This document shows, in pieces, positions 14,902 to 29,427 of a stretch of 64,000 nucleotides of DNA (position 1 is its first letter; the number at the start of each line of letters is the position of its first letter). The DNA is from Roseiflexus sp. (GTDB lineage Bacteria > Chloroflexota > Chloroflexia > Chloroflexales > Roseiflexaceae): NCBI GenBank assembly GCA_017743475.1, contig JAGHYV010000015.1, positions 1 through 64,000 of the forward strand. The letters run 5' to 3'. The notes beneath the pieces are model-generated. The model was not told where the DNA came from. It ran no database searches and worked only from the letters and a program-made list of their open reading frames with translations. Both the position numbers and the translations under genes were made by a program.

Positions 14902-16266
14902 CTACAAACCGAGCAGCACTTTGGCGATCAGGAGATAAATCGCCAATCCGCTGGCATCCACTAGGGTGGTAATGAGGGGTGCAGAGATCAGCGCAGGGTC
15001 GATACCGAAGCGTCGTGCTGCCATCGGAACCATCGCGCCAATAATATTCGCCCAGATGCAGATCGCCATCACCGAGAGCGCAACCGTGATCGCCAGCGAC
15101 GCCATCGGCACTTCCAGGAACGCGCGTCCGAATGCGATAATCGCCAGCAGAAAGCCCAGAATGACGCCCACCAGCAATTCGCGCGCCAGCACGCGCCATA
15201 CATCGCGTAGACGGACTTCATTGAGTGCCATAGCGCGAATCAGGGTCGAAACGGTTTGCGCACCGGTATTGCTGCCGGTGCCGATCAGCAGTGGAATAAA
15301 GAACGACAGCGCCACAACCTGTTCTAGTTCCGCTTCGAAGAGCCGCAGCACATTTGCCGTAATCGATCCGGCGACGAAGAGGAACAGCAACCACACAATA
15401 CGCCGTCGCACCGATGCCGCGATCGGTGTCGTGAAGTAGGTTTCGTCCGCCTGCCCCTGTGCCACGGCGCCGAACTTCAACACGTCTTCCGCGCCTTCTT
15501 CGACCAGCACGTCCATCACATCGTCGACCGTAACGACGCCAAGCATGCGCCCCGCGTCATCAACGACTGGCAGCGCTGCCAGATCATAGCGTGCCACCAT
15601 GCGCGCCACCTCTTCCTGATCGGTTTCAGGATGAACAGCGATGGGTGATGGACGCATCAATTCGATGACTGGTCGATCCGGTCTTTCCACTAGCAGGCGC
15701 CGCAGGCTGACCGTACCGATCAGTCGATCGCGGACATCGAGCACATACAGGTACACAATGACCGCTGCGTCATGAACGATGCTCCGCAGACGTACCATTG
15801 CGTCGGCAACCGTATCGCTTTCGCGCAGCGCGACGAACTGATCGTTCAGCAGACGACCGGCGCTCTGCGGCGGATAGCGGAGTAGTTCACGAACATCGGC
15901 TGCTTCTTCCGGCGCCATTGCTGCCAGCAATTCGTGCTGACGCTCTGGCACGTCTTCGGCGAGAATAGCGGCGGCATCATCACTGTCAAGTTCTTCCAGA
16001 ATATCGGCAGCCTGTTCGACCGGCATCTGACTAATCAACTCGCGGGCGGTGTCGATGCTGGCTTCGTCAAGGACATCAGCCGCCTGCTGACGTTCGAGCA
16101 GGCTGAAGACGCGCTGTTGATCCTCATCATCCAGCCGTTCAATAATGTCTGCCAGATCGGGAGGATAGATGCGCGCCACCAGATCGCGGAGTGCTGCGAT
16201 GTCGTCGGCATCCAGGGCGGCGCGCACCTGTGATTCGAGCAGATCCAGATCGAGGGGGGCGGTCAT
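14902..16266 (-). CDS. mgtE: Magnesium transporter MgtE
   Basis: A 454-residue inner-membrane Mg2+ channel. The MgtE N superhelical domain (PPDLADIIERLDDEDQQ) covers residues ~30-135, a CBS pair ~140-265 (DRLIGTVSLRRLL, DAGRMLGVVTVDDVMDVL), and five hydrophobic helices fill the C-terminal half with the pore motif PLLIGTGSNTGAQ. Cytosolic Mg2+ bound between N and CBS domains gates the pore in this family. The ATG at 16266 overlaps the hydrolase stop by 4 bp; a 161-codon upstream extension was rejected as it lies in the hydrolase gene. Confidence 0.9.
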   Translation of the reverse strand: MTAPLDLDLLESQVRAALDADDIAALRDLVARIYPPDLADIIERLDDEDQQRVFSLLERQQAADVLDEASIDTARELISQMPVEQAADILEELDSDDAAAILAEDVPERQHELLAAMAPEEAADVRELLRYPPQSAGRLLNDQFVALRESDTVADAMVRLRSIVHDAAVIVYLYVLDVRDRLIGTVSLRRLLVERPDRPVIELMRPSPIAVHPETDQEEVARMVARYDLAALPVVDDAGRMLGVVTVDDVMDVLVEEGAEDVLKFGAVAQGQADETYFTTPIAASVRRRIVWLLFLFVAGSITANVLRLFEAELEQVVALSFFIPLLIGTGSNTGAQTVSTLIRAMALNEVRLRDVWRVLARELLVGVILGFLLAIIAFGRAFLEVPMASLAITVALSVMAICIWANIIGAMVPMAARRFGIDPALISAPLITTLVDASGLAIYLLIAKVLLGL

Positions 16267-16994
16267 GCGGCGCACTCCTGCTGATCGAGCCATGGCGTCA
16301 GCACGTCGATCAGTGCGTCTGCGTGGGTGTGCAGCAGGCTGACGCCTCCTCCACTGACGATCGCCGGTGTGCCATGTCCGACAGTCTGCGCTATCTCGTG
16401 CGCCTGACGCAGGATCGGGGCGGGGTCGCGATCCCCGGCGATGATGAGCGTTGGCGCAGTTATTGAACGCAATTGCATACGATAATCGGTATGCTGGAGC
16501 AGACGCTGGCATGCCTGTGCGTCGTGGTCGCCAGCACTGGTTGAGCGGCTGAACGCTGCGATCAACCCATCGCGCAGGCGCGCGCCGAGAGACCGTCGCC
16601 CGGCTGGCAGGATTTCGGGTGGCGAGATCAGCACCAAACCGGACACGCGCGTTGGTTGGTCGGCGGCGAGGTGGGTGGCAACCGCCGTTCCACCTGCGTG
16701 ACCAATGATAACAGTGCGCGGCACGCCGAGCAGATCGAGCAGATCGCACACATCGGCTGCCAGGCGCGCGATGCTATCGGCGAGCGGCAATCGACGACTC
16801 CGACCATGCCCGCGCAGGTCTGGCACGATAGTCTGATACCTGCCAGCAAGTTTGCTGGCGAGTGGTTGAAACACATCACCGCAGGCGCCAAAGCCATGGA
16901 TGAACAGCAGCGGAAATCCGCTGCCGCCGGTTGCGCAGTAGAGCGCGGATGCGCGCCTAGTTGCAGGAATGGCGCGCAGAGTGAGCGCAGTCAT
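16263..16994 (-). CDS. Alpha/beta-hydrolase homologue lacking the nucleophile Ser
   Basis: A 243-residue alpha/beta-hydrolase: oxyanion segment LLFIHGFGACGD, DLRGHGRS, acid in LIIAGDRDPAPI and His in SLLHTHADALI. At the nucleophile elbow, where GHSxGG is expected, the sequence reads GHAGGT with Ala encoded by GCA, so a catalytic Ser is missing. It may be inactive, a binding protein, or use a different residue. A GGAGG precedes the ATG. It is translationally coupled to mgtE (ATGA) and lies directly downstream of the candidate structured RNA. Confidence 0.75.
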   Translation of the reverse strand: MTALTLRAIPATRRASALYCATGGSGFPLLFIHGFGACGDVFQPLASKLAGRYQTIVPDLRGHGRSRRLPLADSIARLAADVCDLLDLLGVPRTVIIGHAGGTAVATHLAADQPTRVSGLVLISPPEILPAGRRSLGARLRDGLIAAFSRSTSAGDHDAQACQRLLQHTDYRMQLRSITAPTLIIAGDRDPAPILRQAHEIAQTVGHGTPAIVSGGGVSLLHTHADALIDVLTPWLDQQECAA

Positions 16995-17129: not shown

Positions 17130-17160
17130 CTAAAAAGCCCCCACAGCCTCAGACTGCGGG
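17130..17160 (-). terminator. Intrinsic terminator of candidate structured RNA
   Basis: Read on the minus strand, CCCCCGCAG pairs with CUGUGGGGG (9 bp including one G-U) around a 7-nt loop and is followed by CUUUUU. It lies 135 bp upstream of the hydrolase start, so it either ends a separate RNA or acts as an attenuator for the hydrolase-mgtE transcript. Confidence 0.8.
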
Positions 17161-17491
17161 GGCGCATAACCAGAGAGGGGCGTACCGCTTATAAGCGACC
17201 GCCCGCGCTGCACTTCCCCGCAGCGTATGAGGTAACCGGCGCACAGATACCGTTGTGCTGCCGCGCGCAACTATGACCAGAGTTAGCGTCCATATCCCTT
17301 CAACAGAACACTCTCTCGCCTGAGCCGGGTGGAAAACTCATTGTTTTCTGACACACCTCTGCGCTTCAACAATCGCTGCAGGTTTTTTCCTGCACATTCA
17401 CCATATGTTCACGACTAAACCTGGTGAACTTTGCGATTACGCGCTGTGTTTGGGCGAAAGAGCACAACCATACAACCGGTCACGACCGGCT
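17130..17491 (-). ncRNA. Candidate structured RNA or attenuator leader (~360 nt)
   Basis: Between a near-consensus promoter and an intrinsic terminator on the minus strand lies a region with no credible ORF but at least six hairpins. Their arms on the plus strand are CCGGTC/GACCGG (17476-17489), GTTCAC/GTGAAC (17407-17429), TGCAGG/CCTGCA (17377-17394), GGC-GCACA/TGTGC-GCC (17238-17262), CGCTGC/GCAGCG (17206-17225) and CGCTT/AAGCG (17186-17197). I do not recognise tmRNA, RNase P, 6S, SRP or known riboswitch cores. Its place just ahead of hydrolase-mgtE allows either a free RNA or a riboswitch-like leader. Confidence 0.55.
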
Positions 17492-17497
17492 TGAGCA

Positions 17498-17526
17498 AGT
17501 ATACACGCTCGTGCGCAGCGCGTCAA
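17498..17526 (-). promoter_or_regulatory. Near-consensus sigma-70 promoter
   Basis: On the minus strand: TTGACG at 17526-17521, exactly 17 bp, then TATACT at 17503-17498. Transcription would start near 17491, immediately before the first hairpin of the candidate RNA. It lies just downstream of the methyltransferase stop codon. Confidence 0.7.
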
Positions 17527-17538
17527 GTTGCGAAAATG

Positions 17539-18912
17539 TCAAAGTTTCGCGTTCGCTGGCACAACAGTCCACGCCTCACCGCCGATTACGTCGATGACCT
17601 TTACGGCGAGCAGTGCGCCCGTAGCGTGCCGATCCAGGGTGTAGACGCCGCTGACGAGCGTCCTGCGGCGTAGTGGTGCATCCACAATTGTGGGACAAAA
17701 CAATCTCCCGTCATATGCGGGATCGATCAGGATCTCATCAACCATACAGCGCCAATCGTTCAGATCGCCTGATACGGTTGTCAATGCGGGATTGACGTAC
17801 CCCTCGACAGTGATTGTAATCTGTGCATTGGTGCGCGCGATACGAATGGTCGCCTCGCCGCGCGGCGCTGGCGTCGTTTCTCCGACCTGCACAATGGTAA
17901 AGCCATCGGATGCCGGATTGCACGGCTGAAGCATGCAGCGCAACCGACGGGCGGTAATCTGGATGGCGCTCGGATTGACATCACAGGCAATCCAGCGTCG
18001 CCCCAACTGCTGCGCGACAACCGCCGTCGTGCCCGATCCGGCGAAGCAATCCAGTACCACGTCGCCTGGACGGGACGAAGCGCGCACGATGCGATTCAGC
18101 AGCGCTGGCGGTTTGGTAGTGGGATACCCCAGGTCACGCACGAGCGCTGCGTCGATTGGGATCGTCCACACATCGTAGGCGCCGATGCCGGGTTTGCGCA
18201 GATAGGTCTTGACCCGCTCACCACGCGGGTTGACATTCCAGTAGTAGCGTCCACGCTCGTCCGCCTGCCGAAAGCGGGCAAGTTGCTGTCGCGTGTAGGG
18301 GATAAGCACCTCGTTGTAATTGAACGTCCAGCGATCACTGCGGGCATAGAGCAGGATGGTATCATGTTTGCGGTTGAACTGGCGTTCGCCATCGCCGCCG
18401 CTTGGGTAGAACCAGATAATTTCGTTCAGCATCCGTTCGGCGCCGAAGACTTCGTCCATGAGACAGCGCAGCAAGTGCGCCTTGCGAAAATCGCAGTGCA
18501 GGTAGATGCTGCCATCTTCGGCGAGCAGTTCGCGCAGCGCGATCAGGCGTTCGTACATGAACTGGAGATAGGCGTCATCGTCCCAGGTATCGCGGTATTC
18601 GGCATTGGGAACAGGAATGAGTCGCGCAGAACCGGAACCACGCAGGCGTATGCGGCGCACACGGTCGATGCCAGCGCCGAATGGCGGGTCGATGTAGATC
18701 AGATTGATGCGCTGCCGATACCCGTTCGCCAGAAGCCAGGTCAGCGCGGCAAGGTTCTCGCCGTGGATCAACATATTCGGACCGGTCGCACCCGATCGTT
18801 CCACTTCGATAGCGGTCGGAACGGTGAGCGGCGCCAGTGGTCGCTTTCCGTTCCAGGTGAGAAAGGCGCGCCCCGCAGGCGGCGACAGGTGAATAATAGG
18901 CGGTATGTCCAT
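17539..18912 (-). CDS. Orphan site-specific DNA methyltransferase (beta class, Mod-like)
   Basis: A 457-residue N6-adenine or N4-cytosine DNA methyltransferase. The catalytic motif IV (INLIYIDPPFGAG) is at about residue 73 and precedes the AdoMet motif (LDCFAGSGTTAVVAQQLGRR, ~residue 278), the order of the beta class, similar to type III Mod subunits. A ~150-residue C-terminal extension follows. No restriction endonuclease gene is adjacent, so it may be an orphan regulator or housekeeping methylase. Target sequence cannot be read from the gene. Confidence 0.85.
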   Translation of the reverse strand: MDIPPIIHLSPPAGRAFLTWNGKRPLAPLTVPTAIEVERSGATGPNMLIHGENLAALTWLLANGYRQRINLIYIDPPFGAGIDRVRRIRLRGSGSARLIPVPNAEYRDTWDDDAYLQFMYERLIALRELLAEDGSIYLHCDFRKAHLLRCLMDEVFGAERMLNEIIWFYPSGGDGERQFNRKHDTILLYARSDRWTFNYNEVLIPYTRQQLARFRQADERGRYYWNVNPRGERVKTYLRKPGIGAYDVWTIPIDAALVRDLGYPTTKPPALLNRIVRASSRPGDVVLDCFAGSGTTAVVAQQLGRRWIACDVNPSAIQITARRLRCMLQPCNPASDGFTIVQVGETTPAPRGEATIRIARTNAQITITVEGYVNPALTTVSGDLNDWRCMVDEILIDPAYDGRLFCPTIVDAPLRRRTLVSGVYTLDRHATGALLAVKVIDVIGGEAWTVVPANAKL

Positions 18913-28743: not shown

Positions 28744-29427
28744 TCGGGAAATGGATGCTACTCGTGAGCGACTGAGCACGTTCTTGCTTTACCTGACTGT
28801 TGAAGCGCTTATAGTATCTCTCAGATACGTTGACCATCGTGTGCATCTTCCATGTCGTGCAGGGTGCCCGCTTCCGGCATAGGGTTCAACCTCTCGTAGG
28901 AACTAATCCGATATTCGTTCGTGCCGTGGGGATGTTGAGAACATAAACCGGTATGCGCCGTTGCTGCGGGGCTCATGAAGATGAAGACTAGGCACTCAAT
29001 CCGGTATTCGTTCGTGCCGTCGAGCTAATATTTAGAACTTAATCCGGTGTACCAAACCGGCTGTCGGGCTAAAGCCTTCGGCTATGCGAGGCGAAGCCCG
29101 CCTGCGCGGGCTATGCTGGGTTATTTATTTATCATGGGCTCTCAGCTTTGCGGGGCGAGGCCCGCCTGCACGGGCTATACCGGACTTGACTCTTGAAACT
29201 CATAAGCTCTCAGCTATACCATGCAAAGCCCGTCTGCGCAGGCTGTAGCGGAATAAACAACCATACATTTCGGTTGCCGTTTGGGGAGCGCAATGGTGAT
29301 TGTGGTTGTCCAGGGAGGTTCAACCGCTGTAAGAGCTGCTACGGTGCGCTATCCTGATACCGTTCTACTTGTCAGATATGACCTGTCGCTGCCCGTGATG
29401 TGTCAACCTAATTGAAACCTGCAACGC
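28744..29427. repeat. Repeat-rich intergenic region within the MoxR-DUF58 cassette
   Basis: No gene is visible in these 680 bp. It holds two copies of ATTCGTTCGTGCCGT (28914 and 29003), three copies of a 29-bp element with self-complementary GCCCGCCTGCGCGGGC (29091-29119, 29155-29183, 29223-29251), and copy 2 of the ~60-bp dispersed repeat (29266-29327). It also has a GCTTCCGGCATAGGGTTCAA motif like that near 9989. The region looks like an accumulation site for genome-wide repeats. Confidence 0.75.

Follow-up and report, generated by a model that had tools for sequence, protein, structure and literature searches.

Control of Mg2+ uptake through destabilizing nascent peptides has been described for enterobacteria, in the leader peptides MgtL and MgtQ (PMC11282234, PMC8092293). 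In the leader of enterobacterial mgtA, ribosomes drop off at the EPDP motif of MgtL at low Mg2+ through intrinsic ribosome destabilization (PMC11282234), and MgtQ of the Salmonella mgtCBRU operon requires Asp2 and Glu5 (PMC8092293). The Chloroflexota leaders analysed here resemble that of MgtL in that a short upstream ORF (uORF), with an acidic N-terminus followed by basic residues, precedes a Mg2+ transporter gene and its translation is proposed to control termination, but they possess an intrinsic terminator whereas MgtL works via Rho (PMC11282234); furthermore, the Chloroflexota uORF has no sequence homology to MgtL, is often found in series with an M-box, and its response to Mg2+ is a presumed one. 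The likeness to MgtQ consists in Asp2 of a short uORF in front of a Mg2+ transporter gene and in alternative RNA structures, but MgtQ frees the mgtB ribosome-binding site and so controls mgtB translation (PMC8092293). The Salmonella mgtCBR leader, with the attenuation-like short ORFs mgtM and mgtP, also joins two sensors in one Mg2+-related leader, although its signals are ATP and proline and there is no riboswitch partner like the M-box (PMC3641672). In mycobacteria, a conserved uORF (uORF2/Rv1805A) separates an M-box from the main genes; this peptide, however, is reported to be specific to mycobacteria, and the system employs a translational platform and Rho, without a uORF-controlled intrinsic terminator (PMC12810186). 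Another candidate regulatory RNA upstream of mgtE, the mgtE motif SRC-65-1, is limited to Thioalkalivibrio and includes the Shine-Dalgarno sequence and AUG of the main gene (PMC11109978). The M-box (ykoK) riboswitch itself is absent from the leader under study, but present in orthologous leaders and in front of a second Roseiflexus mgtE operon. No description of a module that consists of such a uORF and a terminator was found in the open-access literature. We estimate at about 0.6 the probability that the leader of the Roseiflexus hydrolase-mgtE operon is a transcription attenuator governed by a conserved acidic, MgtL-like leader peptide.

In the window, that is, the whole analysed stretch of 64,000 nucleotides from a Roseiflexus sp. 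contig, the original prediction placed a structured RNA without an ORF, equipped with a TTGACG-N17-TATACT promoter, six hairpins and a G+C-rich terminator with U5, next to a two-gene unit containing mgtE. Much of this outline agrees with what we find. All parts of the leader and the operon lie on the minus strand. The promoter (17526..17498), the best of three promoter-like matches in 3.5 kb (1.3 +/- 1.1 in shuffles), comes directly after a DNA methylase gene that is encoded on the same strand and ends at 17539; the orthologues have the same promoter. It is followed by a 5' hairpin, GCCGGUCGUGACCGG (17476..17490), and by the 5' strand of a long-range helix, GUGCUCUUUCGCC (17453..17465), the 3' strand of which is GGCGAGAGAGUGUUC (17306..17320); two closing pairs of this helix show changes on both sides. 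The helix encloses a weakly conserved domain (17321..17452). Downstream of it are a Shine-Dalgarno-like AAGGG (17296..17300), a uORF of 34 codons plus stop that encodes MDANSGHSCARQHNGICAPVTSYAAGKCSAGGRL (17189..17293), within which lies a candidate antiterminator strand, CUCAUACGCUGCGGGG (17216..17231), and the intrinsic terminator T2 (17132..17163), which consists of a hairpin of 12 pairs (17163-17137) and U5. The alpha/beta-hydrolase gene, the first in the operon (16263..16994), starts 137 nt past the end of the terminated RNA, and mgtE (14902..16266) follows with a 4-nt overlap with the hydrolase stop. The 361-nt RNA has a folding energy of -155.5 kcal/mol (z = -4.6), a stability that none of 100 shuffles reaches, so that the structured character of the element stands; the count of six hairpins is not a robust trait, given that identity of the 5' half falls to 35% within the genus. 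The element is very probably the 5' leader of the hydrolase-mgtE operon with a coding uORF.

Past the terminator, the segment GGGUCCUCCUGACA (17112-17096, minus strand) is complementary to the Shine-Dalgarno region of the hydrolase gene, UGGAGGACUGCC-AUG (17008-16992, minus strand), and this complementarity is kept in the other Roseiflexus leaders, so that a second, translational control is possible. In a covariance search, the window copy of the leader matches no Rfam family. Models of tmRNA, RNase P, 6S and SRP RNA have no match at the leader locus, each being found elsewhere in the genome, and weak matches to NsiR1, petD and ncS037, far below the gathering scores, were rejected as well. Elsewhere in the window there is one CRISPR-DR28 match (29090-29113, plus strand, 40.5 bits).

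The best conserved part of the leader is GAAGGGAUAUGGACGCUAACUCUGGUCAU, which comprises the Shine-Dalgarno-like site, the start codon and the following codons. The 34-codon frame is kept in all six Roseiflexus orthologues (the genome of the window and five others), with a dN/dS of 0.28 in frame compared with 1.06 and 2.35 in the other two frames; only 0.33% of the column shuffles yield a value as low (fraction 0.003). By this comparison of sequences, the window uORF is under purifying selection as a protein, contrary to the prediction of an RNA without an ORF. Between two Roseiflexus subgroups, the uORF is 84% identical, compared with 35% for the enclosed 5' domain. In other genera, the orthologous uORFs start with MDAKPGHSC, MDAIPGHSC, MDAIPGHSQ, MDDGHSC, MDVSHSC or MDASHSC; the first residues alone are common between genera, and the C-termini and lengths vary. 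A core motif, GRAUAUGGACGC-N7-GGUCAU, considered as a pseudoknot aptamer, was dropped once its letters were recognised as codons in a single frame that change synonymously. The second Roseiflexus mgtE operon (L041, G000:C162:45962-46128, minus strand) consists of an M-box, a first terminator, the uORF MDEGGHRSWRRSAATAYQTHLLLASVA, a second terminator, mgtE and ABC-permease-like genes; over its full length, this second uORF has a dN/dS of 1.9, that is, no purifying selection.

A DNA search yielded orthologous leaders in the five other Roseiflexus genomes and partial ones in G009 and G010, two further genera of the family; the genera g3, g7 and g9 were added by pattern search and hydrolase search. 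The promoter, the 5' hairpin and the terminator recur in the other Roseiflexus genomes as well as in G009 and G010, and every clade that was examined shows synteny of the leader with hydrolase-mgtE. In G009, G010 and G014, the orthologous leaders carry an M-box (RF00380; 111.6, 119.7 and 113 bits, respectively) upstream of the orthologous uORF, at the place of the enclosed domain of Roseiflexus. The counterpart of GUGCUCUUUCGCC starts the M-box match in G009 and G010, that of GGCGAGAGAGUGUUC is the 3' arm of the first terminator in M-box leaders, and the first M-box strand, GUGCUCUCUCG, is still present in Roseiflexus. The synteny and these M-boxes support the proposal of an attenuating, perhaps metal-responsive leader. 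A match to a known RNA family, which the original prediction regarded as refuting, occurs in the orthologues in G009 and G010 but not in the window copy. Neither the window leader (E up to 5) nor the five Roseiflexus orthologous leaders (E up to 0.1) gave an M-box match; a canonical M-box is found elsewhere in the Roseiflexus genome, before the second mgtE operon. In the hydrolase-mgtE leaders of Roseiflexus, g3 and g7, the M-box is absent and the uORF is kept, with the enclosed domain of the g3 leader much shorter than that of Roseiflexus. In the hydrolase tree, every M-box-less clade pairs with an M-box-bearing genus: Roseiflexus groups with g5 (98/96), g3 with g6 (85/86) and g7 with g9 (91/89), two of the three groupings being moderately supported and the g9 sequence being partial. 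Three losses of the M-box with retention of the uORF are the simplest reading of this tree, which would imply that the uORF carries regulation by itself. One of the leaders, in G013, has a SAM riboswitch (RF00162, 83 bits) upstream on the opposite strand (L035:4106-3973, minus strand; L057:904-771, minus strand).

M-boxes are present in 28 of the 158 Chloroflexia genomes and in 42 of the 400 sampled Chloroflexota genomes. Nearly all of the 30 Chloroflexia M-box leaders that were read contain, after the M-box and usually behind a first terminator, a short ORF starting with M-D/E (MSD in family f13); L060 and L076 have deviating ORFs. Outside Chloroflexia, such a uORF, often starting with MDAGPSS, was assigned in 14 of the 21 M-box leaders and one more (MDGDGSRQ, in L092) was recognised by eye, whereas none was recognised in the remaining six (L080, L081, L084-L087). 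At the usual uORF place downstream of its M-box, L085 has a good Shine-Dalgarno sequence followed by AUG-UGA, a stop right after the start. Judging from these sequences, an acidic-start uORF exists in most of the Chloroflexota M-box leaders examined. The genes behind uORF-bearing leaders encode MgtE, MgtC, Nramp-type proteins, ABC permeases and P-type ATPases, in line with the predicted metal link, which is, however, expected from the selection itself where leaders were selected by the M-box. In seven leaders (L071-L073 and L075 of family f13, L079, L088 and L093), the uORF has no obvious U-tract terminator behind it and the main gene is near; there, translation of the main gene may be what the uORF acts on.

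The product of p-values from a shuffled-ORF test was not used as proof because these leaders were picked for having the ORF; a cleaner test is a blind search of the 400 Chloroflexota genomes for a Shine-Dalgarno sequence followed by MDAGPS, with the reversed pattern as control. This pattern matched in 14 genomes and the reversed control in none. Eight of the 14 genomes carry an M-box (confirmed at the locus for L105), and seven of their loci could be read through to the gene, L083 ending within the uORF. The other six, all of genus g114, are not among the M-box genomes of the 400-genome survey, and no M-box was detected in the three of their loci scanned with Rfam; in the four g114 loci that were read (L115 and L116 being left out), one and the same kind of gene follows at a distance of 0.3-0.5 kb. 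All Pfam-tested genes behind these uORFs are transporters, namely ABC permeases (L079, L105), an Nramp-type protein (L088) and MgtE with a PRC barrel (L113), and the remaining genes were judged by eye. The g114 uORFs (L113-L118) start with MDAGPSSS and, with no detected M-box, are candidates for a stand-alone leader peptide outside Chloroflexia. A second anchored pattern matched G011 only. The pattern of the leader core was not found in viral contigs, and its matches in Bacteroidota, which have in common a longer, unrelated, coding-like context, were taken as chance. Overall, there is good support for a coding uORF and for its link to Mg2+ transport.

The window leader has two traits of a leader-peptide attenuator: upstream of the operon there is a short ORF, predicted to be translated from a ribosome-binding site of its own, and an intrinsic terminator lies close behind it. 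T2 begins 25 nt past the uORF stop, and in other leaders with an identified T2, this spacing is mostly 18-27 nt. In many leaders, the 3' part of the uORF is complementary to the 5' arm and loop of T2: the partners are CUCAUACGCUGCGGGG (uORF codons 21-26) and CCCCCGCAG..GAG in the window, CUUCUCGCCAG and CUGGCGAGAAAG in the second Roseiflexus operon, and CUCACGCUUCG and CGUAGCGUGAG in G009. Leader by leader, the significance of this complementarity is modest (p 0.08 in the window); complementarity and folding together make the candidate antiterminator strong in several leaders, but it is missing in L008, L061, L063-L065, L076 and L078. Folding with the ribosome placed at successive positions gives a clean switch in five leaders (L037, L041, L042, L062 and L066), where a ribosome on early codons suppresses T2, and T2 wins from about codon 16-18. 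For the window leader, equilibrium folding leaves T2 stable at almost every ribosome position and the switch appears only in the nascent-RNA calculation, where the T2 5' arm is held about 0.9 under an early ribosome and 0.4-0.7 when the ribosome is at codons 22-30. With the ribosome on the last codon, the outcome is reversed in three of the six orthologues, which, together with the equilibrium stability of T2, makes the direction of the switch less sure in the window leader. On balance, translation of the uORF probably controls T2. In the proposed mechanism, RNA polymerase would start near 17491 and a ribosome would load on the uORF at 17293; translation reaching the 3' half of the uORF would occupy CUCAUACGCUGCGGGG, so that T2 forms and mgtE is off. 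Drop-off or early lag of the ribosome, which an acidic N-terminus would be expected to cause when Mg2+ is low, would leave CUCAUACGCUGCGGGG to pair with the T2 5' arm and allow read-through into hydrolase-mgtE.

With respect to the signal, acidic residues make up 26% of positions 2-7 of the uORF peptides but 3% of later positions, where the peptides are basic, and Asp or Glu occupies position 2 in 24 of the 29 representative peptides. The acidic N-terminus typical of MgtL-type peptides is a feature of the set; the window peptide itself has only a single acidic residue near the start, Asp2. By analogy with the enterobacterial peptides, we infer that translation of the uORF breaks off early when Mg2+ is low and that this is the trigger, and put the odds that the signal is Mg2+, acting through the ribosome, at roughly even. 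In the sister genera, with an M-box in front of the same uORF module, Mg2+ would be read twice, and the Roseiflexus hydrolase-mgtE operon would have kept the uORF stage alone. At slightly less than even odds, we tentatively propose that Chloroflexota sense Mg2+ phylum-wide by the translating ribosome together with an acidic leader peptide (MDxxPGHS, MDDGH, MDAGPSS and kin). This sensor would usually stand in series with an M-box but suffice alone, the latter because several lineages without the M-box keep the peptide.

The protein-level constraint in Roseiflexus, and the precedent of a conserved, M-box-controlled mycobacterial uORF of unclear role (PMC12810186), could also mean that the uORF encodes a small peptide with a function of its own, exerted on MgtE or elsewhere, with the terminator merely setting the ratio of peptide to main gene. 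We consider this unlikely because so little beyond the first residues is common between genera, the same start precedes unrelated transporter families, the second-operon uORF is not constrained over the whole ORF, and the spacing between stop and terminator is kept. Somewhat less plausible still is attenuation of the classical amino-acid type or by a general sensor of translation rate, responding, for example, to His, Cys or initiation and not to Mg2+. A trp-like architecture agrees with the complementarity between the uORF and T2 and with the ribosome-position folding, and a Gly/Ser-His pair recurs in many peptides, but the peptides contain at most one His, with none in several (MDAGPSS), there is no run of control codons, and what follows downstream are genes for metal transporters, in many cases preceded by an M-box.

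If the Roseiflexus 5' domain were a new aptamer that replaced the M-box, it would be the real sensor and the uORF would be secondary. The conserved long-range closing helix, with two pairs changed on both sides, and the overall fold (z -4.6) speak in its favour, but an aptamer is usually the best conserved part of a leader, whereas the enclosed domain diverges even between Roseiflexus subgroups and is much shorter in g3, so that we regard this possibility as improbable. The remaining suggestion of the original prediction, a stand-alone, trans-acting small RNA of about 360 nt, has in its favour the element's own promoter and terminator and the size of the terminated leader; synteny with hydrolase-mgtE in every clade examined, and constraint that falls on codons, the uORF being the most constrained part of the element, make it very improbable.

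If attenuation by an acidic leader peptide is the correct reading, these leaders would represent a second, apparently unrelated occurrence of Mg2+ control through destabilizing nascent peptides, in a distant phylum and repeatedly paired with a metal riboswitch. That the peptide repeatedly stays behind where the riboswitch is missing would point to a general solution, and the leaders with one or both devices would form a natural series in which to study what is gained from a second sensor. Upstream of mgtE, what looks like a 'structured non-coding RNA' can be a coding leader.
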